NCBI GenBank assembly: GCA_021783515.1
Contig: JAJXTV010000014.1
Location: 1-64,000, forward strand
Length of the DNA: 64,000 bases
Source of the DNA: Nitrospirota bacterium
Lineage (GTDB): Bacteria; Nitrospirota; Thermodesulfovibrionia; Thermodesulfovibrionales; UBA6898
Direction of reading: 5' to 3'
Shown here: positions 6,819 to 26,708 of the stretch, piece by piece
Numbering within the stretch: position 1 is the stretch's first letter
Layout of the letters: each line of letters starts with the position of its first letter
Translations under genes and position numbers: made by a program
Notes under the pieces: model-generated
The model's input: only the letters and a program-made list of their open reading frames with translations
Databases searched by the model: none
What the model was told of the DNA's origin: nothing

Positions 6819-6822
6819 TTGA

Positions 6823-6842
6823 ACTAAGAGGTCACTCTTAGT
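6823..6842 (+). promoter_or_regulatory. Perfect palindrome at the Tad transcription start
   Basis: ACTAAGAG and CTCTTAGT (8 bp each) flank GTCA. The element overlaps the predicted +1 position, where it could be a repressor operator in DNA or a protective 5' hairpin in RNA. The sequence alone cannot separate these. Confidence 0.5.
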
Positions 6843-6857
6843 GACCCGATTCTGGTT

Positions 6858-6959
6858 ATGGAGCATCGATTCATCCAAGGAGGTGATGGTCATCGGGCTA
6901 CCGGAGTAGTAAAGCGAGGGGATAGAGCAACTTTTAACCCTGTAAGGGGGAAACCATGA
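6858..6959 (+). other. Possible leader ORF overlapping the first flp gene
   Basis: An ATG at 6858 opens a 33-codon frame ending in a TGA that overlaps the flp ATG (ATGA at 6956-6959). Within it lies AAGGAGGTGAT at 6877-6887, an exact complement of the 16S rRNA 3' end, followed too closely by a seven-codon mini-ORF (6886-6909). Neither frame has a normally spaced ribosome site. This may be chance or a translational control leader. Confidence 0.2.
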
Positions 6960-7162: not shown

Positions 7163-7248
7163 CGCGGCAGGAGCTGATGACACAGGGGCGGCACTACCGC
7201 CCCTCAGCTCTCAACGTCCACCCATATAGCGAAGCCAAAGGTTCCGCC

Positions 7249-7704
7249 ATGAAAATACTCAGGAGGCCAAAGGGGCAGACGGTCATCGAGACCGCCCTCA
7301 TAATAACCCTTCTTCTCATGCTGTTTTTCGGCATCGCCGAGATCGCAAGGGCCTGGTGGATCAAGGGACAGCTGAACAATGCCGCCAGAGTCGGGGTAAG
7401 GGTCGCCATCGTGACATCGCCCCTTACGGGAGGCGACATCAATTGCGCGTCGGCCACGGATGCCGTCCGGGCTGCCGCATGCAATTCGATCTCCAGCGCC
7501 GACGTGAAAAATACCGCAGTGGTCACGGTCGGCAGCAGCGGGAGTCTTGAAGAGCCGCAGAGCGGAGATGAGATTACCGTGACGGTGATCGGCACCTTCA
7601 CTTCGGTAGTGCCCGGACTTTCTACCGGAGGAAACACCGGATGGGGCAGTCTTTTCCCCGCCAGCAAAGGGCTTGCCGGCGTGTCGGTGATGAGACACGA
7701 ATGA
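7249..7704 (+). CDS. tadE: TadE-like pseudopilin
   Basis: About 151 residues. The N-terminus KGQTVIETALIITLLLMLFFGIAEIAR is the TadE-like (PF07811) segment: a processed leader with Glu at +5 and one transmembrane helix, followed by a soluble periplasmic domain. TadE is a minor pilin of the Flp pilus. The frame is open upstream to 7177, but the intervening residues are polar and not family-like, so I choose the ATG at 7249 (MKILRRPKG). Its ribosome site is weak (AAAGG). It lies 86 bases after flp in the same direction. Confidence 0.85.
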   Translation: MKILRRPKGQTVIETALIITLLLMLFFGIAEIARAWWIKGQLNNAARVGVRVAIVTSPLTGGDINCASATDAVRAAACNSISSADVKNTAVVTVGSSGSLEEPQSGDEITVTVIGTFTSVVPGLSTGGNTGWGSLFPASKGLAGVSVMRHE

Positions 7705-7834: not shown

Positions 7835-8740
7835 ATGGCTGCGAAACCCAAATCCGTCGTTATCGTAGGTGTTCTGTCCCTGGCCATCGCCGCATTCGCG
7901 AGTTATTCTCTCTTCACCTACCTGAAGGGACAGGAAGCACGGGTGAAGTCGGCGGTCGCCACGTCCAAAGTCGTGGTGGCGGCGCAGGACATACCCATCG
8001 GCAATGCAATAAACATAACACAGGTGAAAGAGATCGACTGGCCGCAGGGCACCGCGCCGCAGGGCTCCTTTCAGTCGACTGACCAGGTAGTCTCCCGCGT
8101 GACGCTCGACCGCTTCGCGGCAGGAGAGCCGATACTCGACAGCAAGCTCGTTCCGAAAGAGGGACAGAAGGGCATCCTCACCTACCGGATACCGGAGGGC
8201 CATCGGGCTATGACGGTGAGGGTCGACGACGTCGCCGGAGTGGCCGGCTTCATCATGCCCGGCAACAAGGTCGACGTGGTGCTCACGACCCGCCAGGTTG
8301 CCAACCAGCAGCCGATCAGCAAGATCGTGATCCAGAACGTGCCCATTCTTGCGACCGGCCAGATCATCGAACAGAAGAAGGACGAAAAGCCGGTCGTCGT
8401 GCCGACGGTCACGATGGACGTCGTACCCGAGGATGCGGAAAAGCTCGCCATCGCCAGCACCCAGGGGACCCTGCAGCTGGTGCTCAGGAGAGCGGGGGAC
8501 GCCGATTTTGCAAAGACCTCAGGCGCCACCGTAGTCAAGGTGATCAAGTCGTCGAGCTTCCAGGGAGAGCCGTCACCGGCGCCGAAGGCGGCTCCGGGCA
8601 GGAAGATCCACGCCAGAAAGGCTGCTCCGCCGGTAAAGGAAGCGAAGGCCGAGAAGAAGCCCGCAGACTCAGGGTACGGCGTGGAGGTCTGGAAGAGCGG
8701 CAAAAAGACCACCGAATTCTTCAGGGGCGAGCAGGAGTGA
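7835..8740 (+). CDS. cpaB: Flp pilus assembly protein CpaB/RcpC
   Basis: A 301-residue protein with one N-terminal transmembrane helix (residues 8-28), a SAF domain (about 45-105, VVVAAQDIPIGNAI...) and an RcpC-type domain (about 110-230, MTVRVDDVAGVAGFIMPGNKVDVV). CpaB works at the outer-membrane secretin of the Tad system. The last 70 residues are Lys/Ala/Pro-rich and probably unstructured. The start is fixed by the AGAGGGGGG ribosome site. A 130-base gap precedes it and contains an imperfect palindrome near 7790-7808 (ATGAG and CTCAT). Confidence 0.92.
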   Translation: MAAKPKSVVIVGVLSLAIAAFASYSLFTYLKGQEARVKSAVATSKVVVAAQDIPIGNAINITQVKEIDWPQGTAPQGSFQSTDQVVSRVTLDRFAAGEPILDSKLVPKEGQKGILTYRIPEGHRAMTVRVDDVAGVAGFIMPGNKVDVVLTTRQVANQQPISKIVIQNVPILATGQIIEQKKDEKPVVVPTVTMDVVPEDAEKLAIASTQGTLQLVLRRAGDADFAKTSGATVVKVIKSSSFQGEPSPAPKAAPGRKIHARKAAPPVKEAKAEKKPADSGYGVEVWKSGKKTTEFFRGEQE

Positions 8741-8784
8741 GGGGGAAGGCCATGAACACTATTACACCATTGCGCGGAGGGAAC

Positions 8785-10143
8785 ATGAAAAAGAATACGG
8801 CGTTATATATTTTGGCATGCGTGATTCTCCTGGCTTTCGGTTCCGTGTCGTTGGCTGCGGTCCCGGTGAAGGTATCGGTGGGCAAAGGCACTATCATTAC
8901 ATTAAAAGAACCGAGCAAGCGCGTTTCGGTCTCGAACCCCGAGGTCGCGGACCTGAACCTCATCTCACCCTCGGAAATTCTCGTCAACGGGAAGAAGGTG
9001 GGCTCCACCAATCTTATCGTCTGGGACGCGAAAGGGAAGACCACATTTTTTGACGTCCTGGTGAGCGGAGACATAGGCGCGCTCGAAAACCAGATAAGAG
9101 AAGTCTTCCCGGGTGCGGACGTCACGGTGGAGGCGGCAGGCGACGCCCTGATTCTGAAGGGGGCCGTCCACAACGAGATCGTAAAGAAGAAGATCGAGCA
9201 GATAGCCCAGGCGTATACCCCGAAAGACTCCAAGATCGTGGACCTGATCGTGATAAAAGATGCCGAACAGGTGGTGCTCGAGGTGAGGGTGGCACAGATC
9301 GACAAGACAAAGCTGAAAGAGCTGGGGGTGAGCGGCATTGTGAAAGGCACGTCCGCAGAGGGGTTCATGAACCTGATAGGCGCTCCTTTATCTCAAGGTA
9401 CCACGACAGGCTCGGGAGGAGGCACTGTTAACACGGGCAGCAACGGAGGAATAACCGGCAACGTCCCCGGCCTCGGTTCTTTTCAGAATCTCGATACGTT
9501 TCAGCTCGGCGTTTCCTATTTCCCGGCCGGCGTCGGCGTCGTCCTCAATGCGCTTCAGCAGCAGGGCGTTGCGAAGATCCTCGCCCAGCCCAACCTCGTG
9601 GTGAGAAGCGGTGAGGAAGGCAAGTTCCTCGTCGGGACGAAGGTCCCGATCCAGACCGTCTCGGGGACGGGGGGAAGCCAGACGGCCTCGATAACCTTCG
9701 AGCAGGTCGGAATAAAACTGAACTTCAAGCCGGAGGTCCTCGACACGGGAGTGATACGCCTGAAGATAGACCCTGTCGAGGTGAGCAACATCATCCAGTT
9801 CCTCACCTTTTCGGGCGGGATAGCCGCTCCCGAGATCGACACGAGACAGATCAGCACGAGCGTCGACCTGAAAGACAGCGAAAGCCTGATCCTTGCGGGG
9901 CTCCTTTCCGAAGAGATGAAGAAGAACATCCAGAAACTTCCGCTCTTCGGGGACATCCCGATCCTCGGGGCGCTCTTCAGGAGCACCAGCGACGAGTTAA
10001 CGAAGAAAGAGCTGGCTTTTTTCATCACGCCGAGAATCGTCAAGCCGATCGCAAAGGACGAGGCGAGGCCGGAAATGCCCGGTGATAAACCGCTCACTCC
10101 TGAAGAAGAGAGGGAGTTTCAATGGATACCGCTCGGCAAATAG
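8785..10143 (+). CDS. cpaC: Tad outer-membrane secretin CpaC/RcpA
   Basis: About 452 residues. It has a signal peptide (MKKNTALYIL to SLAA), a pilus assembly N-domain (VSVGKGTIITLKEPSKRVSVSNPEVADL), a BON/STN-like segment (about 95-140) and a C-terminal secretin domain with the QPNLVVRSGEEGKFLVG and IPILGALFRS motifs. It forms the outer-membrane pore for the Flp pilus. The frame opens at 8737, but the ATG at 8785 follows GGAGGG and begins the signal peptide. A Gly/Thr/Asn-rich stretch at 215-245 is an insertion typical of these secretins. The last 22 bases overlap the TadG-like gene. Confidence 0.93.
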   Translation: MKKNTALYILACVILLAFGSVSLAAVPVKVSVGKGTIITLKEPSKRVSVSNPEVADLNLISPSEILVNGKKVGSTNLIVWDAKGKTTFFDVLVSGDIGALENQIREVFPGADVTVEAAGDALILKGAVHNEIVKKKIEQIAQAYTPKDSKIVDLIVIKDAEQVVLEVRVAQIDKTKLKELGVSGIVKGTSAEGFMNLIGAPLSQGTTTGSGGGTVNTGSNGGITGNVPGLGSFQNLDTFQLGVSYFPAGVGVVLNALQQQGVAKILAQPNLVVRSGEEGKFLVGTKVPIQTVSGTGGSQTASITFEQVGIKLNFKPEVLDTGVIRLKIDPVEVSNIIQFLTFSGGIAAPEIDTRQISTSVDLKDSESLILAGLLSEEMKKNIQKLPLFGDIPILGALFRSTSDELTKKELAFFITPRIVKPIAKDEARPEMPGDKPLTPEEEREFQWIPLGK

Positions 10144-11252
10144 GAAAAGAAACAGATAGGGGCAGCATCACGATCCTGCTGGCCGGGATCATGGTCGCCT
10201 TTCTCCTGATGTTTCTTGTCGTCGGAATAGACTTCGCGTACGTCTATTATGTGAGGGGCGAGCTCCAGAACGCGGCCGATGCGGCCGCGTTGGCAGGGGC
10301 AGGCAAACTCAGCACCCCAAACGACAAAGTCCAAACTGATGCAAGAACTGAAGCAATTAATTTCGCGTCAAAGAATAGGGCAGCAGGATCGGGAGTCGCC
10401 ATTGTGACCGATAGCTCAAACATATTGGGTAATAATAACGACATTACGGTCGGCAATTGGAACAGTCAAACACATATCTACACCCCCGATGCGACCCCGG
10501 TAAATGCTATTGAGGTTCGGCCGAGGAGGAGCGGTAGCGCGCCCGGCGGTCCTGTCGGGCTCCTTTTCGGCGGCCGCCTCATAAACTGGCCGTCAATGAA
10601 TATTGTCCGTCGCGCGGTAGCCGCCCGCCCTGCACGCGCAACTGCTCCGATTTCGGTCTGTTTTCGATCCTGCACGCTCGACCTGACAACCCCCAAACTC
10701 CTCTATTGGGCTCCCTATCCCAGTGAGATAGACCCGGGGACTCAGGGAATAGCATGGACAATCTTTTCACCGACATCCCAGTCAACACCCACTAACGAGA
10801 TCATCCCTTTCTTCTGCGGAAAGGATGTCGACGCCTGCGGCCTTACCATTTACACCAGTAACGGGAATGATAATTCTGCCGCCAGACAATTCCGGTGTGC
10901 GTTTAAGAATCCCCTGTATGACAGCGAACACAAGACCTGTAACGGAGGGGGGCCTTGCACCAGCGTCTCGGATAGCGTTGACGTGTGGAATGTTATCGTC
11001 CCCTATCTGAGCGAGAGTTCGTGCCCGCCCGGCTCCCAACCGCTGCCCTATCCCGTTATTGGGTTTGCGGAGCTCGGCGTTACTGAAGTTTATGCTGCCG
11101 GCGGAGGCGGAACTAGCAAGTGTGCGTGCGGGGCATATGATGCCGCCCCGCCCGGAGGACCGACACCAAATGCCATTATCATAAAGAGCATTCGATGCAT
11201 CGATTGCCCGGCGTCAGAGTTTCTCGGACATTCCGCTTTCTTGGTGAAATGA
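10122..11252 (+). CDS. TadG-like protein
   Basis: A 376-residue protein with an N-terminal Tad-like (PF13400) segment: RGSITILLAGIMVAFLLMFLVVGIDFAYVYYVRGELQNAADAAALAGA. This is the TadG/TadE-related membrane anchor, where residues after the helix mark secreted surface components. The rest is extracytoplasmic, rich in Thr, Pro and Asn, with about 16 cysteines that suggest disulfides. Its middle is less GC-rich than the neighbours and shows no family match I recognise, so this part may be variable or recently acquired. It overlaps the end of cpaC, so the genes are coupled. It could be a tip or minor surface protein of the pilus. Confidence 0.75.
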   Translation: MDTARQIGKETDRGSITILLAGIMVAFLLMFLVVGIDFAYVYYVRGELQNAADAAALAGAGKLSTPNDKVQTDARTEAINFASKNRAAGSGVAIVTDSSNILGNNNDITVGNWNSQTHIYTPDATPVNAIEVRPRRSGSAPGGPVGLLFGGRLINWPSMNIVRRAVAARPARATAPISVCFRSCTLDLTTPKLLYWAPYPSEIDPGTQGIAWTIFSPTSQSTPTNEIIPFFCGKDVDACGLTIYTSNGNDNSAARQFRCAFKNPLYDSEHKTCNGGGPCTSVSDSVDVWNVIVPYLSESSCPPGSQPLPYPVIGFAELGVTEVYAAGGGGTSKCACGAYDAAPPGGPTPNAIIIKSIRCIDCPASEFLGHSAFLVK

Positions 11253-11302: not shown

Positions 11303-12445
11303 ATGTCACAGGGAATCTCGACGGTCATCATAGACAGGGACACCGACACGCTCAACATCGTCGCGAAGTACATCAGGAACCTCGGCGACCATGCGAGCGT
11401 CGACGGGGTCGCGACCGACTTCGAAGGCGGCTACGAGCTGATCCACAGGAAGAAACCGATGGTCGTCATCATGGAGGTATGCAGCGACGACCTGGACCTC
11501 TCGCTCGAGAGGATGAAGATGATCGTGAACCGCTTCCCCCAGGTCTCGATCTTCGCCATGTGCGAGGACAAATCCTCCGACACGATCCTCAAGGTGATGA
11601 GGGCCGGCGCCGCCGAATACCTTCTCAAACCGCTCTCCGAGGTGGACCTCGTCTCGTCCCTGCAGAAGCTCGGCAGGCTGTGGGTGGCGAAACCCGCCCC
11701 TGAAGCCGAAACGGGGCAGTTGATAACCTTCTTCAGTCCCAAGGGCGGCGTAGGGGTCACGACGCTTGCGATCAACGTCGCCATCAACCTCCATGAGGCG
11801 ACCGGAAAGCCGACGATCATCGTCGACCTCGACCTCGAGGCCGGGGACGTCTCGACGTTCCTGAACCTGAAGCCGACCTATACGATAAGCGATGTGACCG
11901 CCAACATGACGCGTCTCGACAAGAGTCTTCTCCAAGGGGTCATCACCAAGCACGATTCGGGAGTATACGTCCTTGCCGAGCCCCAAAGGATCGAAGAAGG
12001 AGTCTCGATAACCGGCGACGATATCCGGAAGGTCCTCGGCCTCCTGAAAATGATGTTCCATTACATCGTCATCGACACCGAGGCGGGGCTGAACGACCGG
12101 ACGAGGGCGGCCGTCGACATGTCCGACACGATCTTTCTGACGTTCGTGATGAGTCTCCCGGGGATAAAGAACATCCAGCGGCATCTCCACTACTTCGAGA
12201 AACTGGGCGTCCGGAAAGACAAGATGAATCTGCTCGTAAACCGATATCTCAAGAAAGGCGATATCCAAACCGAGGACGCGGAGAAGATCCTGAAGCACAA
12301 GATCTTCTGGGCCATTCCGAACGAACACAGCACCGCCATCGCGTCCCTGAACAAGGGCGTCCCGATAAGCGAGTTCGAACCGAAGTCAAAGCTGAACCAG
12401 GCGATCAAGGAACTGGCCGCGTCATTGGCCGCGCGCAGAAGATAA
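11303..12445 (+). CDS. cpaE: Tad pilus localisation ATPase CpaE/TadZ
   Basis: A 380-residue protein with an atypical receiver domain (1-120) and a ParA/MinD-type ATPase domain (135-380). The receiver has Glu58 where phospho-accepting Asp normally lies, so it is probably not phosphorylated. The deviant Walker A is [10 protein letters not shown] at 145-154, with the signature Lys retained and the later Lys replaced, as in other CpaE proteins. A switch motif ([11 protein letters not shown]) follows. CpaE/TadZ positions the pilus machine at a cell pole. It lies between the TadG-like gene and cpaF. Confidence 0.93.
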
Positions 12446-12455
12446 GGAGGGCATC

Positions 12456-13754
12456 ATGGCATACGGCGACACCAAGACCTCGAAGGTAGACATGTATCAG
12501 AACCTCAAAACGAGGATCCACAGGAGACTGATCGAGGGGATGGACTTCACGAACATCGACGTGATCGACAAAACCGTCCTGATGAGGGAGATAGGCCGCG
12601 CCGTCGAGTCGCTGATAGACGAGGAGGGCATCCCCCTGAGCCAGGTCGAAAAGGAGAGCCTCATCGTCGACATCCAGCACGAGACCTTCGGCCTCGGCCC
12701 CCTCGAGCCGCTCCTCGCCGACCCTGACATCTCAGACATCCTCGTCAACCGGTACAACCAGCTTTACATCGAGAAATTCGGGAAACTCCAGAAGCTCGAC
12801 GTGATGTTCAGGGACGACAACCACCTCCTGCAGATCATCGACCGGATCGTCTCGAAGGTCGGCAGGAGGGTCGACGAATCGTCCCCGTACGTCGACGCCC
12901 GCCTGCCCGACGGCTCGAGGGTCAACGCGATCATACCGCCGCTGGCGCTCGACGGGCCGGTCCTTTCGATCAGGCGGTTCGGCGTCGATCCCCTGAAGAT
13001 GAACGACATCCTTGCCTTCGGCACGCTGACGCAGAACATGGCCACCATCCTCGAGGGCTGCGTGAAGACACGGCTCAACGTTCTCATCTCCGGCGGCACC
13101 GGAAGCGGCAAGACGACGCTCCTGAATATCCTTTCGGAGTTCGTTCCGACCACCGAGCGGATTATTACCGTGGAAGATTCCGCCGAGCTTCAGATGAAAC
13201 AGGAGCACGTCGTCAGGCTCGAGACCCGGCCCCCGAATATCGAGGGCAAGGGCGAGGTGACACAGAGGGACCTTGTCAGGAACTGCCTGAGGATGAGGCC
13301 GGACAGGATCATCGTCGGAGAGGTCAGAGGGGGCGAGGCCCTCGACATGCTCCAGGCGATGAACACCGGCCATGACGGCTCGCTTTCGACCATACACGCC
13401 AACTCAACGAGGGACGCGATGGCCCGTCTCGAGACGATGGTCCTCATGGCCGGTCTCGACCTGCCCGAAAGGGCGATCAAGGAGCAGGTGGCCTCGGCCA
13501 TCCAGCTGGTGGTCCAGCTGGCGCGCTTCTCGGACGGCTCCAGAAAGGTGATCAGCATGTCCGAGATCACCGGCATGGAAGGCAACACGATCGTCATGCA
13601 GGACATCTTCGTCCACAAAAAGACCGGCATCGGTCCCGACGGCAGGATCCTCGGCGAATTTCTCCCGACAGGGGTGAGGCCGAGGTTCATGGAAAAATTC
13701 AAGGTCTCGGGCGTCAACATACCCCTGCATATTTTCGAGGGGGGTGAGGTATGA
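12456..13754 (+). CDS. cpaF: Tad secretion ATPase CpaF/TadA
   Basis: A 432-residue type II/IV secretion ATPase. It has an N-terminal helical domain, Walker [10 protein letters not shown] near 212-220, an Asp box with VEDSAEL, Walker [16 protein letters not shown] near 285-300 and the His box [10 protein letters not shown]. It powers both extension and retraction of Flp pili by acting on the TadB/TadC platform. The ATG follows TAAGGAGGG, ten bases after cpaE, and its stop overlaps tadB (ATGA). Confidence 0.96.
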
Positions 13755-14716
13755 CGCCCTACCTGATCGTCATCTTGTTTTTTCTCGCCATAGTCCTTGG
13801 ATTGATCACGCTTTTCGCCGGATACGAGGCGGTCAAGGCATCTCCGTCTTTCGAGCTGAAGAAGCGCCTGAAGAAGCTGGCGGCGACATCGGACGACCGC
13901 CTCCCGTCCGAACTGACGGTCGAGATCCTGCGGGAGATGTCACCCCTCGAAAAGGTCCTTTACCGTCTCGGCATTCTGAGATATGTGGACAGGCTGATAG
14001 AGAAAGCCGGGCTGAAGACCGACCTCAAGATATTCCTTCTTATCATTATCGCTTCGGCCCTCGCCGGTCTCGGCATAGGGTTCTATCTGGGAAAACAGGT
14101 GATCGTGGCCGTTATCCTCGCTGCAGCGGGCTTTGTCGCGCCTTTCATCTACCTGAAGATGAAGGGTAAAGCCCGGGCGCTGAAATTCACCGAGCAGTTC
14201 CCCGACGCGCTCGATATGGTCGCACGGTCTCTTCAGGCCGGCCACTCGCTGTCTTCGGCTGTCCAGATGGTGGGCAAGGAGATGAACGATCCCGTGGCCA
14301 CCCTTTTCAAGTCGGCCTACGACGAGCAGTCGCTGGGAATGACCCTGAAGGACGCCCTTGACCATATGCTGCAGAGGATGAAGAGCCCCGATCTCATGCT
14401 CTTCGTGGCCGCAGTGAACATCCATAAGGACGTCGGCGGCAATCTCTCGGAAACGCTCGAGAGGCTCGCCCAAACGATACGGCAGCGTCTGAAGATACGG
14501 CGTCAGGTCAGGGTATATTCCGCACAGTCGAGGCTCTCGGCGGTCATCCTCGTATTGCTCCCGATCGTCATGGCGGCCTTCTTCTTTTTCAAGGTGCCGG
14601 GGTACGTTGAAGAGCTTCTCACCTCGGACCTGGGCAGGTACGGGATAGCTTTCGCGGTCATCGCCCAGTTGCTGGGCATTATTGTCATCAAGAAGATCAT
14701 CGATATCAGGATTTAA
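13751..14716 (+). CDS. tadB: Tad inner-membrane platform protein TadB
   Basis: A 321-residue T2SF-domain protein. It has an N-terminal transmembrane helix, a second hydrophobic pair near 95-130, the cytoplasmic T2SF domain with [22 protein letters not shown] and [13 protein letters not shown], and C-terminal helices near 260-315. TadB and TadC form the membrane platform driven by CpaF. Start overlaps the cpaF stop by four bases. Confidence 0.93.
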
Positions 14717-14808
14717 GGTATGCGCGGGCATGCGCCGGACAACATAAACGGAAGTTCTTCACCGGACAGGGGCAGGCGACCGGCCGGGTGCTGCAGATTG
14801 GAGGTCAT

Positions 14809-15726
14809 ATGTCGGTATACATGGTGATCGCTCTGGTGTTCATCGGGACGGCCTCTCTGGTGGCCTTTCTTCTTTATCTCGTCGTGCCGAAAGGAACGCC
14901 GATAGAGGAGCGGCTGAGAACGCTCGAACCCGGCAGCGAGCCGGCGGTGGCGTATGGGGAGAAGCCTCCCGGCGCGTTCAGGAAATTCCTGGGGCGGCTC
15001 GGGGCAAACATCCCGCTCAGGGTGCAGGATTACGGCAAGTATTCGAGAATGCTGATGGCCGCGGGGATCAGGAAAGAGAAGCTCCCGGTTTTCATGGGGG
15101 CAAAACTGCTCCTGGCCGTCCTCCTGCCGGCGATCTATCTCGTGCTGTACGGCTTTCCCGTCGAGACCGACCATTTGACCCGGGTCCTGTTAGTCGTGGT
15201 ATTCGGCATCCTGGGCTTTCTCATCCCGAGTTACTGGCTCTCGAAAGCGGTGAAAAAGCGGCAGCTGCAGATATTCCTCGACCTCCCGGACGTGCTCGAT
15301 CTGATGACGGTCTGCGTCGAGGCGGGCCTGAGCATGGATGCGGCGATGGTCGCCGTCTGTGCAAATCCGCACATGAAAGAAAGCCCCCTGGTCGCCGAGA
15401 TGACGACCGTGCTTCGTGAAACAAGGGCCGGGAAGCAGCGCTCCGAGGCGCTGAGGGACATGGGTGAGCGGGCGATGGTCGACGACCTGAAGGCCTTTAC
15501 CGCGATGCTCATTCAGACGGAGCGTTTGGGGACGAGCCTTGCACGGGCGCTCAGGATCCATTCGGATTCACTCAGGACGATACGTATGCAAAGGGCGGAG
15601 GAACTCGCGGCGAAGACGTCGATCAAGCTGCTCTTTCCTCTCGTCTTCTTTATCCTGCCCGCGCTCTTTGTGGTAATGCTCTTGCCGGCGGTGATCAGGA
15701 TTTTCAGGGTCATCAACGCCCTGTGA
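14809..15726 (+). CDS. tadC: Tad inner-membrane platform protein TadC
   Basis: A 305-residue T2SF-domain protein paralogous to TadB. The motif LPDVLDLMTVCVEAGLSMDAAM marks the T2SF domain, with paired transmembrane helices near 95-140 and at the C-terminus. I choose the ATG at 14809 because GGAGGTC lies just upstream; the frame is also open from a GTG at 14788. It closes the contiguous core of Tad genes. Confidence 0.93.
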   Translation: MSVYMVIALVFIGTASLVAFLLYLVVPKGTPIEERLRTLEPGSEPAVAYGEKPPGAFRKFLGRLGANIPLRVQDYGKYSRMLMAAGIRKEKLPVFMGAKLLLAVLLPAIYLVLYGFPVETDHLTRVLLVVVFGILGFLIPSYWLSKAVKKRQLQIFLDLPDVLDLMTVCVEAGLSMDAAMVAVCANPHMKESPLVAEMTTVLRETRAGKQRSEALRDMGERAMVDDLKAFTAMLIQTERLGTSLARALRIHSDSLRTIRMQRAEELAAKTSIKLLFPLVFFILPALFVVMLLPAVIRIFRVINAL

Positions 15727-15875: not shown

Positions 15876-15994
15876 TACACGCGGCGAAGGATCGCCGCCA
15901 GTCGTCCTTTTATGATGACCGCGGACATCTCCTCTCCTTTGGGAGCGCCCAGAGGAGAGGAGCGGAATAAAGGCGGGCACGCCGGAAGGTGAGA

Positions 15995-16336
15995 ATGAAA
16001 GCGGTAAACCTGACGACACATGAGGAGCTAGCCGATGACGTGACCGTTGCGCAGGGCGTAGTCGCCCGGATGAAGGGTCTGCTCGGTCAAAAGTCGATGC
16101 GCGCCGGCGCGGCGCTTCTCATCGTGCCGTGCAAGTCGGTCCATACGTTCGGCATGCGCTTCCCTCTGGATGTACTGTTTCTCGACAAGAAGGGCCGGGT
16201 TACCGCACTGAAGGAACACCTGCTCCCCAACCGCCTTACTCCGCTGTACATACGTGCGGCACGCGTAATCGAGATGCCGGCAGGAAGGATAGCGGCGACA
16301 CGCACGCGCATCGGAGATGAAATACAGATCGCCTGA
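15995..16336 (+). CDS. DUF192 family protein
   Basis: A 113-residue protein matching DUF192. Features are ARMKGLLGQKSM near the N-terminus, the conserved VHTFGMRFPLDVLFLDKKGRV strand pair, and the ending VIEMPAG-x-IAATRTRIGDEI. The fold is a small beta-barrel of unknown function. The ATG at 15995 has GGAAGGTG upstream; a GTG at 15989 is also possible. DUF192 genes occur in many Tad loci. It overlaps the next gene by 20 bases. Confidence 0.85.
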   Translation: MKAVNLTTHEELADDVTVAQGVVARMKGLLGQKSMRAGAALLIVPCKSVHTFGMRFPLDVLFLDKKGRVTALKEHLLPNRLTPLYIRAARVIEMPAGRIAATRTRIGDEIQIA

Positions 16337-17972
16337 ATGCACAGCAATCGATCCGGGGCAGGATGCGGCCCTCGCCGTCGCGCCAAAGACAGGCAGGAGC
16401 GAAGGCATACTGAGGTTCCTGCTGCCGTCGATCGGCGAGGTCCTTTTTCTCTGCGTCTTTCTTCCCCTTGCGCTGTCCAGGGGTACGGAACTCCTTTACG
16501 ACGCCGACACGGGCTACCATATCCGAGCCGGCCAATACATGCTGCGGACCCTTTCCGTCCCGACGCACGACATCTTTTCCTATCTGTCGCCGCCGCTTCC
16601 GTGGACCGCCCATGAGTGGCTGTCGGAAGTCATCATGGCCCTTCTCCACTCGTTTCAGGGCCTTACGACCGTCGTCCTCTTTTTTTCGTTTCTCATCGGC
16701 GTCGAATTCATCGTGCTCTTCAAGATGGTGCGGTCCAACGGAGGGGACATCTTCACCGATCTGCTGATAGTCCTTCCGGTCATTCTCGCTTCACAGATAC
16801 ACTGGCTGGCGCGACCCCACATTTTTTCCCTGCTGCTCATGACCCTCTGGTATTACGCCCTCGACCAGTACCAGTACCGGGACAGGAACCATCTGGTCTT
16901 TCTGCCGTGTGTCATGCTCCTCTGGGTGAACCTCCACGGCGGCTTTATTCTGGGATTGCTGCTCGTCTGTGTCTATCTGGCGGGCAACGCGCGCCCGGCC
17001 TTCTCCGCAGATGCCGCCGCCAGGACGGCGGCGCGCAGGAAAGTCAGGCACTACGGGCTTCTGCTGGCCTTTTGTCTGCTCGCGTCTCTCTGCAACCCGC
17101 AGGGTTTTCATATCCTTGCCTTTCCGTTCAGGGTCACCGCCAACTCCTATCTTATGGACAACGTTAATGAGTTCCTTTCCCCCAATTTCCATAAGACGAC
17201 GGTATTCCGCTATCTGCTGCTGCTGACGGTCGCAATTCTCGCCGCCTCGAGAAAGAGACTGGGCGACATCGAGATCCTGCTCCTTCTGCTCTTTCTTAAT
17301 ATGTCTCTCTTTTCGGCGCGCTATATCCCTCTGTTCGGAGTGATCGCGGCCCCCGTTCTTTCCCGGCAGGCAGGCGAGATCGTCAGGCGCGGGCGGGGAA
17401 AAGTCCTGGATTTCTTCCGAAGCCGGTCCCGCAGGATCGCGGCGGTAGACTCATCCGCGCGAGGGCACCTCTGGCCCCTTGCCGCAGTCCTCGCGGCTGC
17501 GGTGCTCACCTCCGCCGGAACGGTCAGCTTCGCGTTCGACAAGAACAGGGAGCCCGTCGCGGCGACGGATTTCCTGAAGCGCGAGCAGATCAGCGGGAAC
17601 ATGTTCAACAACGACGAGTTCGGCGATTACATCATCTATGCGGCCTGGCCGCAATACCACGTCTTCTTCGACGGCAGGTCCGACATGTACGGCGCTGCGC
17701 GGATGAAGGACTACTTCACGGTCTCCGGAGTGAAAAGAGACTGGGAGTCGGTCCTGAAGAAATACGGCATCAACTGGATCGTCTTCGACTCGGACTCCGC
17801 TCTGGCTACTTTCCTTGAAGGAAGAAAGGGCTGGAGGCTCGTCTATGCCGACGCAGTCGCCGAAATCTTCGTGAGGGACACCCCGGAGTATGCGACTCTG
17901 ATCGCAAAATATCCCGACGTCAAACCGGTGCGGCATCGCGCTTCGAAGGGAAAGCAGGCGGGCGATGGGTGA
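16317..17972 (+). CDS. Large polytopic membrane protein, possible glycosyltransferase
   Basis: 551 residues with about eleven hydrophobic helices after a cytoplasmic N-terminus. The first outside loop has DADTGYHIRAGQYM and later PWTAHEWLSEV, with acidic and His residues at the positions where GT-C enzymes bind lipid-linked sugar. The C-terminal 130 residues are soluble and contain NNDEFGDYIIYAAWPQYHVFFDGRSDMYG. I cannot name the family with certainty. Its start overlaps the DUF192 gene and its end overlaps the following gene by eight bases, so it belongs to the pilus-linked operon and may glycosylate pilins. Confidence 0.6.
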   Translation: MKYRSPECTAIDPGQDAALAVAPKTGRSEGILRFLLPSIGEVLFLCVFLPLALSRGTELLYDADTGYHIRAGQYMLRTLSVPTHDIFSYLSPPLPWTAHEWLSEVIMALLHSFQGLTTVVLFFSFLIGVEFIVLFKMVRSNGGDIFTDLLIVLPVILASQIHWLARPHIFSLLLMTLWYYALDQYQYRDRNHLVFLPCVMLLWVNLHGGFILGLLLVCVYLAGNARPAFSADAAARTAARRKVRHYGLLLAFCLLASLCNPQGFHILAFPFRVTANSYLMDNVNEFLSPNFHKTTVFRYLLLLTVAILAASRKRLGDIEILLLLLFLNMSLFSARYIPLFGVIAAPVLSRQAGEIVRRGRGKVLDFFRSRSRRIAAVDSSARGHLWPLAAVLAAAVLTSAGTVSFAFDKNREPVAATDFLKREQISGNMFNNDEFGDYIIYAAWPQYHVFFDGRSDMYGAARMKDYFTVSGVKRDWESVLKKYGINWIVFDSDSALATFLEGRKGWRLVYADAVAEIFVRDTPEYATLIAKYPDVKPVRHRASKGKQAGDG

Positions 17973-19653
17973 AACCGCCGGACTTTCGACTATGCAGCTG
18001 ATATGCTCCGTTGGCATGCATATCGCCCTTCTCCTGCCGCTGCTGGCGATGCCGGTGACGCGCGCCGAATCGGGAGACTGGAAATTCGAGGACTATGTGA
18101 TCTATCTGATGCTGAAAAACCCGCCTCCTGCCGCCCGGGGTGCGGCAGCGCAGGAAAAGAGCGCAACCCAGCCGGGCAGCGGGGCCATGGGAAAGGACGC
18201 CGTTGTTCCTGCTCCGGCCCCTGTTGAAAGGCGCGCGGCTCCTCCCGCCGATCAGGCGTTTACCGGAAAGGGGCCCGCGGGAAAAGGCATGCCGGCTGAT
18301 AATCCCGCCGCCGAAGCAGCCGTTCGGCCGGGCCAGCGGGAGGATGGGGAAGCCGGCACACTGAAAGAGGCGACAATGCGGAGCGGGAATTCCCAGGCTC
18401 CACAGGGAAAGCAGACTGAGTCCTTACCGAAAGATAGCCCCGGCGGGGCCGGAGATGCCGCGGGAGAGGAAGCGCTTGTGCTGCTGCCCGACACACCCGC
18501 CGCAAACGGCTTCTTCGATGCCGGCAATGCAACGGCCCCGATGGCCGCTGCGCCTTCCCTTCCCGCCGTGACTGCCGAAAGGGATGTTCCCCCTGCGAAA
18601 GATCCCGCATTGGCGGAGCGGCCGCGCATTGCGATGCCGGCGCCGCAGAAAGCTGCACCGGCAGACAACATCCCCGTCGCTGAACAAAAGGCGATCGTTC
18701 CTCTGCCCGCCACACCTCCCGTAAGCGGCCTCTTCGCCGCCGGGAGGACAACACTGACGCCCGCCCCGGCCAAGCCCGTTACGTCACGCGCTGCAGACAA
18801 GGGAAAGGCCGCTCTAAAAAAGACCAGGGTCGAAGAAAGAACAGCGGCTTCGGCGATTCAGGGAGTCCTGCTCCCCGGGCGGGGGCGTTCTCTTGACGGG
18901 TTGGTCCGGAGCGCCGCGGCCTCGCGCCTTCCTGAGCAGGGGGCGTCTTCCCTGAAAGCGGCCCCGTCCAGTCTTCCTGTGACAGACCTCACCAATACTC
19001 CCGGCCCTTCTTTGTCCGGGCAGCCCATCGTTTCAGCCATGGGGAAAAAGCCGGAGAAGACGACTGCACCGCCGCCTCTGCTTCCTCTGCAGACAGGGGG
19101 GGGCTCAACCGGCACGCCTGCGCCTCGGACCGCCCCCCAAGAGGAGGGCGAGGGCGGCAGGCTTCCGGTGCTCCCGCTTGCAGCCTACGCCCCGCTGAAG
19201 ATCGAGATCGCGTGCGCACAAAACTGCCTTCAGGACCTCTCGATGCGGCTGGTGAAAAAGCGCTATCCCGACGCCGGGAAACGGAGGGAGCCGGCAACCG
19301 AGGTCGACATGAAGGAGGAGACGCTGCGGTCCGCCGCCCGGGATACGAGGCTTATATCGGTGGCCGCTGCGGCACGCGGGACATACGCCTTCATGATCGT
19401 CAACAACAGCCGGGCCAGCGACGTTGTCGACATATCATTCCTTTTTTCCGATGGGCCGAAGCTCCTGAGAGTCAAGAAGTACACCGCCGCGACCATCGCC
19501 GCCGGGGGGAAGGCGACATATCGCTTCATCATCCCCGACGCAATCTTCTGGGACGACGAAGACCGCTTTGGCGGGACCATCGAGGACTCCGGTTCGATTA
19601 CAAAATTCAACGATGAAACAGGTCTGGTGTGGCGGGAAGAAAAGAGTTATTAG
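17965..19653 (+). CDS. Ala/Pro-rich exported protein of unknown function
   Basis: 562 residues. An N-terminal signal peptide (CSVGMHIALLLPLLAMPVTRA) is followed by about 370 residues dominated by Ala, Pro, Gly and Lys with loose repeats (LLPDTPAANGFFDAGNATAP resembles LPATPPVSGLFAAGRTTLTP). The last 170 residues are ordinary in composition and predicted beta-rich (a Cys pair IACAQNCLQ, then TYAFMIVNNSRASDVVDISF). The layout suggests a periplasm-spanning or cell-wall linker with a globular C-terminal domain. ATGs at 17965 and 17992 are both possible starts. I recognise no family. Its place between the membrane protein and the AAA+ ATPase suggests a pilus-linked role. Confidence 0.55.
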   Translation: MGETAGLSTMQLICSVGMHIALLLPLLAMPVTRAESGDWKFEDYVIYLMLKNPPPAARGAAAQEKSATQPGSGAMGKDAVVPAPAPVERRAAPPADQAFTGKGPAGKGMPADNPAAEAAVRPGQREDGEAGTLKEATMRSGNSQAPQGKQTESLPKDSPGGAGDAAGEEALVLLPDTPAANGFFDAGNATAPMAAAPSLPAVTAERDVPPAKDPALAERPRIAMPAPQKAAPADNIPVAEQKAIVPLPATPPVSGLFAAGRTTLTPAPAKPVTSRAADKGKAALKKTRVEERTAASAIQGVLLPGRGRSLDGLVRSAAASRLPEQGASSLKAAPSSLPVTDLTNTPGPSLSGQPIVSAMGKKPEKTTAPPPLLPLQTGGGSTGTPAPRTAPQEEGEGGRLPVLPLAAYAPLKIEIACAQNCLQDLSMRLVKKRYPDAGKRREPATEVDMKEETLRSAARDTRLISVAAAARGTYAFMIVNNSRASDVVDISFLFSDGPKLLRVKKYTAATIAAGGKATYRFIIPDAIFWDDEDRFGGTIEDSGSITKFNDETGLVWREEKSY

Positions 19654-19683: not shown

Positions 19684-21087
19684 ATGGAAAGATTTCTCGG
19701 ACAGAAGCTTCTGAAGGAAAGGGTAGTCACGGACGAGCAGCTGGCAAATGCCCTGGAGAGGCAGAGCATCCTCGGGGGAAGGCTGGGAGACAACCTGGTG
19801 GCCCTCGGGTATACGACGCACGAGCAGCTCGCCACGTTTTTCACTCGCCATCCGCAGCCCCCCAAGACCGCCGCCGAGGCCGGCCTCGACCTTTCGTTTA
19901 TCGCCGACCTCGTCCTCAAGCATATCCTCTTCTGCGGCGAATTCACGCTTCGCGACGTCTCGGAAAGCGTCAAACTCCCGATTGCGATCATCGATGCGGC
20001 AATCGAGTCCCTCCGTCGCGACAAGCTCGTGGAGGTGAAGGGCGCCGCAGATTTCGCCCGGGTGACCTATAAATTCATCCTCACCCAGCAGGGAAGGCGG
20101 CACGCCTCCGAGCTCCTGGAGGTCTGCCAGTATGTCGGACCGGCCCCGGTCCCCCTCTCCGATTACGTCGAAATGGTCGAATTTCAGACTATCAAGAATA
20201 TTATCGTACGGGAGGAGGACACCAAACGGGCTTTCTCTCACCTCATCGTCAGCGAAGAGCTCCACAGGCGGCTCGGCCCCGCCGTCAGTTCCGGCAAGGC
20301 GATCTTCATCTACGGTCCTCCCGGGAACGGAAAGACGAGCATCGCCGAGACGATCGGGAAGATCCTCCCGGGAGGGGTCTACATTCCCCATTCGCTGATT
20401 GTCGGCGGACAGATCATCAAGATGTTCGATCCTATCAATCACATCCCGCTCACGCAGGGACACGAGGAAGAGACGGACAAGAGATGGCTCCTCATCAAAA
20501 GACCGATCGTGCATACCGGGGGAGAGCTCACCCTCAGGATGCTCGACCTGGACTTCAACCCGATCGCCAAGTTCTATGAGGCGCCCCTGCAAATCCGGAG
20601 CAATAACGGCCTTTTTATCGTCGACGACTTCGGGAGGCAGCAGATGGACCCCGCGAGCCTCCTGAACCGGTGGATCGTGCCGCTCGAGCGGAACGTCGAT
20701 TTTCTGACCCTGCATACCGGGATGAAGTTCGATGTCCCCTTTGACCAGCTCGTCATATTCTCGACGAACATAGAGCCGAAAAAGCTGGTAGACGAGGCGT
20801 TCCTGAGGAGGATCAGGTACAAGATCAGGATCGACCATCCGTCCGAGGCGGAATTCGAGGCGATCTTCAGGAGGGTCTGCGAGGTCAACAGGATCGAGTT
20901 CAGGAGAGAGGTTTTCCAATACCTCAAAGACGCCTATTACGCGAAGTCGAAGATCGAGTACAACGCCTGCCATCCGAGGGACCTGATAGACCATATCATA
21001 GACGACGCGCACTACTATAACCACCCCCCTAAACTTACGAAGGAAGGGATCGACATCGCATGGAAGAATTACTTCGTGGACATGTAA
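19684..21087 (+). CDS. AAA+ ATPase with MshEN-like cyclic-di-GMP domain
   Basis: 467 residues in three parts. Residues 4-27 and 33-56 are two 24-residue motifs of the form x-L-G-x3-L...L-x3-x-x2-Q/H separated by exactly five residues, which is the layout of the MshEN cyclic-di-GMP-binding domain. Residues 60-165 look like a winged helix (IADLVLKHILFCGEFTLRDVSESV). Residues 170-467 form an AAA+ module with Walker A GPPGNGKTS, Walker B LFIVDDFGR and sensor FSTNIEPKKL. It resembles gate-keeping ATPases rather than secretion ATPases. It probably regulates the pilus or its glycosylation. Its end overlaps the glycosyltransferase gene by 28 bases. Confidence 0.75.
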   Translation: MERFLGQKLLKERVVTDEQLANALERQSILGGRLGDNLVALGYTTHEQLATFFTRHPQPPKTAAEAGLDLSFIADLVLKHILFCGEFTLRDVSESVKLPIAIIDAAIESLRRDKLVEVKGAADFARVTYKFILTQQGRRHASELLEVCQYVGPAPVPLSDYVEMVEFQTIKNIIVREEDTKRAFSHLIVSEELHRRLGPAVSSGKAIFIYGPPGNGKTSIAETIGKILPGGVYIPHSLIVGGQIIKMFDPINHIPLTQGHEEETDKRWLLIKRPIVHTGGELTLRMLDLDFNPIAKFYEAPLQIRSNNGLFIVDDFGRQQMDPASLLNRWIVPLERNVDFLTLHTGMKFDVPFDQLVIFSTNIEPKKLVDEAFLRRIRYKIRIDHPSEAEFEAIFRRVCEVNRIEFRREVFQYLKDAYYAKSKIEYNACHPRDLIDHIIDDAHYYNHPPKLTKEGIDIAWKNYFVDM

Positions 21088-21866
21088 CTGCAAGGCCCGA
21101 CTTCCTGTCGGTCGTGGTGCCGGCGTACAACGAGGCCTCGCGTCTCGCGCCCACCCTGTCGCGCATTGCGGAATATCTCCCCTGCGCGTTCGGATCTTAC
21201 GAGATCATCGTGGTCGATGACGGCAGCACGGACGACACCGCGGCGGTTGTGAGGGCGGCGGGGCTCAGACTGAAGGGAATTCGCCTGATGCGGTACTCCC
21301 GAAACAGGGGGAAAGGGTATGCCGTGCGCACCGGGTGTCTCGCCTCCAGGGGGGATCTTCTGCTCGTCAGCGACGCCGATCTCTCCACCCCCATCGAGGA
21401 GATTGAGAAGCTTCTCCCCTTCATCGACAGCGGGTTCGACGTGGCGATAGGGTCGCGCGCCATCCCGGGGGCGGACATCGCCGTCAGACAGTCGCGCGTC
21501 AGGGAGACCATGGGCAAGACGTTCAACCTCCTGGTCAGGGCCCTGACGATAGGCGGCATCAAGGATACGCAGTGCGGTTTCAAGCTGATGAAAGGGGGAC
21601 CCGGGCGGGAGCTTTTCTCCCGTTGTCTCATCGACGGCTTTGCCTTCGACGTAGAGATGCTCTTGCTGGCGAAGAAGGCAGGCTGCAGGATCAGGGAGGT
21701 CCCGATACGCTGGCTCAATTCGCCGAATTCCCGCGTCCGGCTGATGAGGGACCCTCTGTGCATGCTGACGGAATTATTCAGGATCAGGGCATATGCGCTT
21801 TGGGGCAGGTATGAGCGAACGGCCCCCGTAAGCGGTCAGATCTCCCTGAAGCACCCGACTGCATAA
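21060..21866 (+). CDS. Family 2 glycosyltransferase, dolichyl/polyprenyl-phosphate sugar synthase-like
   Basis: 268 residues. A GT-A fold is shown by VVVPAYNEASRL, IIVVDDGSTDDT and the metal-binding SDADLSTP, then DTQCGFKLMKG and FDVEMLLLAKKAG. This matches dolichyl-phosphate glucosyl/mannosyltransferase relatives, which charge polyprenyl phosphate with a hexose. That product is what the GT-C-like membrane proteins nearby would use. There is no C-terminal membrane domain. Coupled to the AAA+ gene by overlap and followed 38 bases later by the second pilin. Confidence 0.85.
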   Translation: MEELLRGHVTARPDFLSVVVPAYNEASRLAPTLSRIAEYLPCAFGSYEIIVVDDGSTDDTAAVVRAAGLRLKGIRLMRYSRNRGKGYAVRTGCLASRGDLLLVSDADLSTPIEEIEKLLPFIDSGFDVAIGSRAIPGADIAVRQSRVRETMGKTFNLLVRALTIGGIKDTQCGFKLMKGGPGRELFSRCLIDGFAFDVEMLLLAKKAGCRIREVPIRWLNSPNSRVRLMRDPLCMLTELFRIRAYALWGRYERTAPVSGQISLKHPTA

Positions 21867-26194: not shown

Positions 26195-26653
26195 TTACGG
26201 CGATGAGACCGTCATCTGGTTGCCCGCAAGGGCGTTGTTCGTCTCGTCCGTCTCCGCGACCCTCACGTCACTGTCCGCTATACCCCGAAGGTGTGTGTCC
26301 CGGCGGCCTGGTTCATCATTATTGTCGCATTGCAACTGACCGTCTGCTGCGCTCCCGCCGCAAGCCCCGACACGAATGCCAGGCACAAATACTGGTCCGC
26401 CGTCGTGATCGTCGCGTCGGTCGATAGATAGAACCCCACATAAAAAGGCCCTGCCGCTCCAGTCCCCTGGTTCTTCACCGTTGACCTTGTCGTAGGTGTA
26501 GTGAGTAACGGTGCCATTGCTGTTTTCATAGATCAGCCGGTTCGCCGCGTCGTAGGTGTAGGTGACCGGCCCGGCGAAGGCCGCGGCGGCCGACAGCAGA
26601 AACAGCAACGCGAGCATCGCCGTCAGCGCCCTGTTGTTTATTCTTCTAGTCAT
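26195..26653 (-). pseudogene. Broken gene: signal peptide, one YD repeat and a CARDB domain
   Basis: The ATG at 26653 follows GGAGGGGG and begins a signal peptide (AMLALLFLLSAAAAFAG) and one RHS/YD repeat (TYTYDAANRLIYENSNG). Then the frame is wrong: a CARDB-like adhesion segment (VKNQGTGAAGPFYVGFYLSTD) continues in the next frame, and its final strand (IADSDVRVAETDETNNAL) returns to the first frame. So at least two frame breaks exist. The simplest reading is a deletion that fused the start of a YD-repeat gene to the end of a CARDB protein, with another single-base slip near 26283. Not functional as it stands. Confidence 0.75.
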
Positions 26654-26708
26654 GAGTTCTTCCCCCTCCCGATTTTTTAAATCAAAATTCAGCATTCAGC
26701 TTTAAGCT

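Follow-up and report, generated by a model that had tools for sequence, protein, structure and literature searches.

An AAA+ ATPase associated with Tad pilus loci carries a predicted c-di-GMP-binding MshEN domain in one branch of its family

A 64,000-nucleotide stretch of a Nitrospirota genome (contig JAJXTV010000014.1, positions 1-64,000; referred to as the window) was analyzed for a locus at 19684-21866. The locus encodes an AAA+ ATPase with an N-terminal MshEN domain and a family 2 glycosyltransferase (GT2), and it is located downstream of an operon for a Tad (tight adherence) pilus on the same strand. With moderate confidence, we explain the ATPase as an accessory part found with many pili of the Tad (Flp, type IVc) type which, in the branch comprising the window, acquired an MshEN domain most likely binding the biofilm signal cyclic di-GMP (c-di-GMP). 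More tentatively, we propose that this overlooked Tad ATPase acts on the pilus motor complex and that a single domain fusion brought direct c-di-GMP control in one branch.

The core of the ATPase was searched in 295 Nitrospirota genomes, in 146 genomes of the class of G308 (the genome of 'Desulfuromonadales bacterium' record L046) and in 201 genomes of the phylum of G309 (the genome of record L047, titled 'Candidatus Gracilibacteria'). Matches were obtained in 16 Nitrospirota genomes, one with a broken gene, in 40 genomes of the class of G308, including G373 with the match in two pieces, and in 82 genomes of the phylum of G309. The Tad motor ATPase CpaF, searched in the same genome sets at E 1e-70, was found in 34, 57, and 124 genomes, respectively. 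CpaF was present in 14/16 Nitrospirota genomes with the ATPase as compared to 20/279 without it (P = 5e-13); the corresponding values were 37/40 and 20/106 for the class of G308 (P = 1e-16), and 80/82 and 44/119 for the phylum of G309 (P = 6e-21), with odds ratios of 53-91 over the three groups. Counting the Nitrospirota by genus gave 8/10 with and 7/125 without the ATPase (P = 1e-7). Flagellar FlhA, used as a control in the class of G308 only, showed no positive association (25/40 vs 83/106, odds ratio 0.46, P = 0.06). The genomes are not independent and two of the groups carry no taxonomy labels; therefore, all P-values are indicative. The ATPase family is tied to Tad pilus systems in several lineages.

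Linkage was counted from profile and BLAST scans of all open reading frames (ORFs); greedy longest-ORF gene calls miss or misread some genes. Locus L070, with CpaC adjoining at a contig end, was counted as Tad-linked by hand. In the class of G308 the ATPase gene is located 4.8-8.2 kb from CpaF in 19/40 genomes. Altogether, 37 ATPase-CpaF pairs within 12 kb were obtained (35 distinct, as two genes were seen twice): 21 are divergent (20 distinct genes), eight have the ATPase gene downstream on the same strand as in the window, and eight have it directly upstream of cpaF, the two genes overlapping by about 29 bases at one extreme and lying about 92 bases apart at the other. The latter eight all belong to the phylum of G309, where they make up 8 of 41 loci (40 fetched loci and L047); in the other 33, no CpaF is seen within 12 kb in the stretch fetched. 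Among plasmids, the ATPase matched in 75 of 72,556 records. The 12 plasmid loci opened all contained CpaF within 7 kb, and our own profile found MshEN in none of them. In Rhizobium etli CFN 42 p42e, the operon ends with the ATPase gene RHE_RS25680, which follows tadC by 15 bases; in Burkholderia pyrrocinia and Paraburkholderia terrae it is placed between the prepilin peptidase gene and cpaB, and in Salipiger it is convergent with tadC. The ATPase gene is thus found within or adjoining Tad operons of differing layout, annotated Rhizobium, Burkholderia, and Salipiger loci among them, and its lineages comprise Nitrospirota, the class of G308, the phylum of G309, and Alpha-, Beta-, and Gammaproteobacteria. 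An earlier note on this DNA, made from the sequence alone, had suggested a survey of the linkage between the ATPase and Tad loci in other genomes; the outcome was strongly positive, with CpaF present in 131 of 138 ATPase genomes and in all 12 plasmid loci opened.

In the window ATPase, an MshEN domain (residues 4-56) is followed by a winged helix (about residues 70-149) and an AAA+ module (about residues 165-467). This architecture had been read by the earlier note as two 24-residue motifs with a five-residue spacer, a winged helix and an AAA+ module, and it was borne out by residues 4-56, the NCBIfam model NF053729, a MarR fold and the Walker A motif GPPGNGKT. Ten residues (G211, G214, G216, K217, D314, D315, T361, N362, R375, R376) were invariant in 61 aligned relatives; we take them to be Walker A, Walker B, sensor 1 and an arginine-rich region. 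Pfam AAA (PF00004) reached 18.7 bits on the window ATPase vs a cut-off of 21.2, which was exceeded by the relatives L071 (24.3 bits) and L163 (26.2 bits), and the PDB matches of the family profile were AAA ATPases (among the matches listed, 60 of 311). The Walker A region could be aligned with CdvC/Vps4, spastin, proteasomal, YifB, and IetA-type AAA ATPases; for spastin, the region around 'DEAFLRRI' aligned as well. Pfam listed no T2SSE domain (PF00437) on the window ATPase up to E 1; hence, it is not a secretion or pilus motor of the PilB/GspE/CpaF type, in agreement with the previous suggestion of a non-secretion ATPase carrying MshEN, for which NF053729 scored above its cut-off. The best NCBIfam scores of the AAA+ part were 26-36 bits vs cut-offs of 362-650 (IteA, YifB, CdvC), so that none of them assigns it to a family. 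This AAA+ family is without a curated name in Pfam or NCBIfam, and its members are annotated as 'AAA family ATPase', 'ATP-binding protein' or 'hypothetical protein'. An anti-phage role was considered and, with PHROGs outside the search, rejected: the IetA/IteA matches in the ATP-binding region are weak (35.8 bits vs 510; 38.4 bits) and common to all 61 relatives, and the Tad context rules against it. A pattern search of IMG/VR returned 166 matches with no relative among them.

The winged helix was modeled with predicted local distance difference test (pLDDT) values of 84-93 over residues 61-120 and 91 over residues 131-140, and it matched the MarR fold with Z 12.5 and a root-mean-square deviation of 1.9 over 77 residues; being shared, this fold implies no function. 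The model of residues 1-150 (4 sequences) had a mean pLDDT of 70.1, with 43-58 in the MshEN part. When this model and the full-length model were submitted to Foldseek, MarR-type winged helices headed the matches listed; among these there was no MshEN or AAA+ chain, which says nothing against either domain.

The two MshEN motifs comprise residues 4-27 and 33-56, with residues 28-32 as the spacer. NF053729, describing a c-di-GMP-binding domain related to MshE, matched residues 5-54 (E 1.2e-14) with 53.8 bits at a curated cut-off of 38; therefore, the match is more than chance. The same model matched 28 of the 61 aligned relatives. The longer MshEN family of Pfam, PF05157 (90 positions), misses the window ATPase, and the window locus is absent among its nine matches in the genome; we therefore confine the domain claim to the 53-residue MshEN_N type. 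Lack of the MshEN_C part is no objection to binding, because MshEN_N of Vibrio binds c-di-GMP in isolation (residues 1-62; PMC5013675, in excerpt). The strict published MshEN consensus was tried as well and fits neither motif copy: in motif I, R1 is replaced by F and G10 by R, and in motif II, F stands in place of the last L and H in place of the final Q. The domain call thus rests on the curated model and on conservation. For comparison of the ligand site, the contact positions of Vibrio MshE (R9, L10, G11, G18, L25, L29, Q32, R38, L39, G40, G47, L54, L58, Q61) were taken from the excerpt of PMC5013675 and a widened consensus from an excerpt of PMC11731258. Binding of c-di-GMP by the window domain is likely, since 10 of these 14 positions are kept, most of the hydrophobic ones included. 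Conservation was counted over 46 distinct MshEN-bearing relatives (27 Tad-linked, including the window, and 19 unlinked), and Q32 and G47 are present in all of them, R38 as arginine in 43, G40 in 43 and G11 in 40. The mean entropy was 1.18 bits at 22 motif positions vs 1.86 bits at 26 other positions (29 rows). The locus L156:8272-11196 (G453) contains a tandem pair of MshEN ATPase genes.

MshEN is present on the ATPase of 7/16 Nitrospirota genomes and in 0/41 loci of the phylum of G309. Within the class of G308, it is present in all 37 other genomes with fetched loci but absent from G308 itself (L046); the fetched set comprised all of the 40 genomes except G371 and G373. A tree of the ATPase core was calculated with the MshEN columns excluded, using a quick method and LG+G4, from 61 relatives hand-picked for spread from 96 (alignment A2; L199, L200, L201, and 32 others were left out). 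All 29 rows with MshEN by our own profile fell into one clade of 31 rows (SH-aLRT 99), and the MshEN label changed three times on the tree vs a shuffled mean of 20.6. The tree fits a single gain of MshEN, which looks to have occurred in a branch that includes Nitrospirota as well as the class of G308; the two rows of the clade without MshEN, L046 and L069, look like losses.

That the gene can lie inside operons or adjacent to cpaF, and that it stays associated with CpaF where the two are unlinked, favors a role in the pilus machine; furthermore, in G030 the broken ATPase gene coincides with no CpaF found. AAA+ subunits may form a ring acting on the cytoplasmic base of the Tad system (CpaF/CpaE/TadBC), which would remodel or license this base at the expense of ATP. 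Binding of c-di-GMP to the MshEN bundle would alter the AAA+ activity, and the signal would enter via the helper ATPase and not via the motor, because no MshEN match is listed for CpaF of the window. Here, c-di-GMP binding, ring formation, the target of the ATPase and the direction of the regulation are our inferences. That c-di-GMP gates the assembly or activity of the pilus is plausible.

Several observations weigh against this explanation. CpaF occurs without the ATPase in 84/215 genomes (20 Nitrospirota, 20 of the class of G308, 44 of the phylum of G309), for which reason we regard the ATPase as accessory and not as a core Tad part, and 7/138 ATPase genomes, one of them with the broken gene, gave no CpaF match. 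The counted genomes are mutually related and many are fragmented; only the Nitrospirota genus table lessens kinship. Among the MshEN-bearing loci of the class of G308, 19/38 are not within 12 kb of cpaF, and seven Nitrospirota genomes (f30) have the ATPase gene without Tad genes in the fetched stretches, two of which (L076, L077) end at contig ends; six of the seven carry CpaF elsewhere. As much of the family is without MshEN, c-di-GMP cannot be its core function. At the ligand site, the window protein is altered at R9 (to F), G18 (to R), L58 (to F) and Q61 (to H; Vibrio numbers), and the R9 and Q61 positions vary widely, being replaced in most of the 46 relatives. The PilF domain GSPII-A, in which H ends motif I and motif II is degenerate, shows no c-di-GMP binding according to the excerpt of PMC11731258. 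Finally, the full structure model (7 sequences) had a mean pLDDT of 55.4, with block means of 26-62 over residues 171-380.

The same domains could belong to a c-di-GMP-responsive transcription regulator of the Tad operon, with the winged helix binding the promoter and the AAA+ part oligomerizing. We consider this unlikely, although the winged helix matches MarR-family DNA-binding domains as described above and 21 of the 37 pairs (20 distinct genes) are divergent from cpaF, the usual place of a regulator. Six positions of the recognition helix (102-104 and 106-108) carry mostly hydrophobic or acidic residues, with D/E at position 104 in 47/61 and E/D at position 108 in 38/61 relatives; position 101 is mostly N, S, G or T and position 105 is mixed. 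Moreover, the window type, Rhizobium and 8/41 loci of the G309 phylum do not show the divergent layout, as there the gene follows the operon, ends it or lies within it. In L206, L208, L210, and L213, which are divergent, a separate gene for a sigma-54-type activator is found nearby (Pfam was applied to that of L206 only). The L206 activator (L206:11404-12870; Sigma54_activat 231.8 bits, Fis-type helix-turn-helix) stands head to head with the MshEN ATPase gene at the front of the Tad operon, and the same arrangement is found in the other three loci, all of the class of G308. Its N-terminal 115 residues gave no Pfam family above threshold; a PilZ domain, suspected from an RLDVR stretch, was not listed by Pfam. 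Alternatively, MshEN may be a relic or a protein-interaction module which does not bind, and the ATPase would then serve the Tad machine without the signal. The replacement of R9 and Q61 in most relatives, the many relatives working without MshEN, and the non-binding domains of XpsE, a case of lost c-di-GMP binding (PMC5013675, in excerpt), and of PilF (GSPII-A, see above) are in line with such a loss; still, it appears improbable to us, as the remaining contacts are conserved, the motif positions have the lower entropy, and PilF GSPII-B binds c-di-GMP at 6 nM despite K and L replacing both motif arginines (PMC11731258, in excerpt).

The earlier note had suggested that c-di-GMP may gate pilus glycosylation or assembly. 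In the glycosylation scheme, the ATPase would control the overlapping polyprenyl-phosphate sugar synthase together with the GT-C-like protein encoded at 16317-17972, with pilus or surface glycans as the output. The tight packing of the genes, in the order DUF192 - 16317 - 17965 - ATPase - GT2 - pilin, speaks for it, and relatives of the ATPase, GT2, 17965 and 16317 genes occur together in five rows, including the window and L158 from the class of G308. However, GT2 is located within 3 kb of the ATPase in only 5/27 Tad-linked MshEN rows (window included), in 0/19 unlinked MshEN rows and in 0/9 Tad-linked rows without MshEN; locus L048 combines Tad genes with a 17965 relative and the ATPase but lacks such a GT2; and neither Pfam nor NCBIfam lists a c-di-GMP domain on GT2. 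In G030 (L066:9529-10878), a broken ATPase gene lies beside an intact GT2 gene (61%), showing that GT2 is separable from the ATPase. CpaF gave no match at E 1e-70 in the G030 genome, and decay of its ATPase gene following Tad loss is possible. The glycosylation proposal is therefore unsupported, and we regard it as highly improbable.

A glycan role for the 16317-GT2 pair near the Tad pilins is reasonable, but it is a question apart from the ATPase. The best PDB match of GT2 was dolichol monophosphate mannose synthase (DPMS; 5mlz, E 5.9e-18), followed by ArnC; GT2 is thus of the DPMS/ArnC type and a putative polyprenyl-phosphate sugar synthase. In contrast to enzymes of this type with a C-terminal membrane domain, crude hydropathy indicated no membrane segment in the window GT2. 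Among rows without MshEN, GT2 lies within 3 kb of the ATPase in 6/42 unlinked ones; the sixth is G030, and the other five are the related loci L171, L172, L173, L174, and L175 (phylum of G309), in each of which the MshEN-free ATPase has as its direct neighbor on the opposite strand a DPMS-type GT2 with 34-35% identity to the window GT2. Upstream of the ATPase, the earlier note had seen large GT-C-type membrane proteins, which is tenable for one of the two genes. The 16317-17972 protein is polytopic, with seven crude hydropathy peaks; because no Pfam match above threshold and no PDB match were obtained, the GT-C assignment is only plausible. Its relatives lie within 14 kb in 8/27 Tad-linked MshEN rows (window included). 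In Nitrospirota, its family was found in 85/295 genomes at E 1e-20 and in only seven at E <1e-80; six of the latter (G000, G018, G012, G048, G072, G063) have the MshEN ATPase and G180 is without an ATPase match, and in G072 and G063 the match is on a contig other than that of the Tad locus. The 17965-19653 protein, which has a single hydrophobic stretch at the N terminus, then a long linker of Pro/Ala and a conserved C-terminal domain (about 150 residues), is not GT-C. No Pfam or NCBIfam family was found for it, and relatives are located within 14 kb in 7/27 Tad-linked MshEN rows (window included). In B. pyrrocinia pBPJTT (L224:1380-5432), two GT87, a GT2 and a GtrA gene are divergent beside the flp genes of an ATPase-bearing Tad locus; this glycosyltransferase-Tad neighborhood is independent of that in the window.

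Compared to known systems, the MshEN domain resembles that of MshE, PilB, and PilF in its two 24-residue motifs and five-residue spacer; in those proteins MshEN_C follows, whereas the window protein continues with a winged helix and a non-T2SSE AAA+ module. In NfrB (PRK11234), a c-di-GMP-activated glycosyltransferase matched at E 0.00064 over residues 3-54, MshEN is likewise an add-on sensor of a non-secretion enzyme, but is located on the glycosyltransferase chain itself and not on a separate ATPase. The MshEN domain and its fusions to varied partners were already known (PMC5013675, in excerpt). The titles and abstracts listed in searches of open-license PMC literature yielded no description of this ATPase with Tad loci. 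To our knowledge, it does not appear in lists of Tad genes. It is also not among the Tad components named in a figure legend of PMC6581867. In Caulobacter, c-di-GMP promotes retraction of the Tad pilus, and 'exactly how' 'remains to be shown' (PMC6581867, in excerpt); an ATPase that is linked to Tad loci and has an MshEN domain of its own is a concrete candidate for a c-di-GMP receptor in other bacteria. If true, c-di-GMP would act on Tad pili via a helper ATPase, unlike in MSHA or type IVa (T4a) pili, where it acts on the motor itself. MshEN-free relatives provide a natural comparison for the role of the ATPase without the signal and, if the family serves Tad pili, generic annotations have hidden part of a widespread pilus machine.

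The features of the window are compiled in Table 1. The Tad/Flp components CpaB, CpaC, CpaE, CpaF, TadB, TadC, and a pilin were all identified by Pfam, which confirmed the order CpaB-CpaC-TadG-like-CpaE-CpaF-TadB-TadC. The top NCBIfam match of CpaF/TadA was TIGR03819 with 356 bits, under the cut-off of 373.15. A gap of 262 bases separates TadC from the tightly packed second run of genes, within which the spacings are -20, -8, 30, -28, and 38 bases. The overlap of 28 bases between the ATPase and GT2 ORFs and the pilin gene after GT2 were found as the earlier note had described them.

Table 1. Features of the Tad region in the window (all coordinates refer to the 64,000-nucleotide stretch)
Feature	Position	Strand	Evidence
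First Flp-type pilin, 68 aa	6956..7162	+	by sequence; no family search made
TadE-like pseudopilin (start perhaps 7249)	7177..7704	+	by sequence; no family search made
CpaB/RcpC	7835..8740	+	PF16976 108.2 bits
CpaC secretin	8737..10143	+	PF00263, PF13629
TadG-like	10122..11252	+	PF13400, PF09977
CpaE/TadZ, receiver + ParA-type ATPase	11303..12445	+	Pfam
CpaF/TadA motor ATPase	12456..13754	+	T2SSE PF00437 235.2 bits
TadB	13751..14716	+	T2SSF PF00482 72.2 bits
TadC	14788..15726	+	T2SSF PF00482 61.5 bits
DUF192 protein, 20-base overlap with 16317 gene	15989..16336	+	PF02643 70.4 bits
Polytopic membrane protein, 551 aa, GT-C-like, DADTGYH stretch near N terminus	16317..17972	+	crude hydropathy
562 aa protein: N-terminal hydrophobic stretch, Pro/Ala-rich linker, conserved C-terminal domain	17965..19653	+	hydropathy, sequence
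MshEN - winged helix - AAA+ ATPase, 467 aa	19684..21087	+	NF053729, structure model, profile matches
53-residue MshEN c-di-GMP-type domain (predicted) within ATPase gene	19693..19851	+	NF053729 53.8 bits
GT2 glycosyltransferase, dolichol/polyprenyl-phosphate sugar synthase type (putative), 268 aa	21060..21866	+	PF00535 104.6 bits
Second Flp-type pilin, 65 aa	21905..22102	+	Flp_Fap PF04964 33.0 bits, cut-off 32.2

The two Flp-type pilins are closely similar and are located at both ends of the Tad region, about 15 kb apart. Ahead of the first pilin gene, a long leader (about 6820-6955) appeared structured by eye; Rfam at the gathering threshold found no family in the window, this leader included. 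Between 15500 and 22300, 18 terminator-like patterns were counted as compared to 6.1 (sd 2.4) in shuffled sequences, many of them within genes. Outside the Tad region, a short ORF at 26195-26695, read by eye with no family search, has a start resembling RHS/YD repeats and is probably a fragment.

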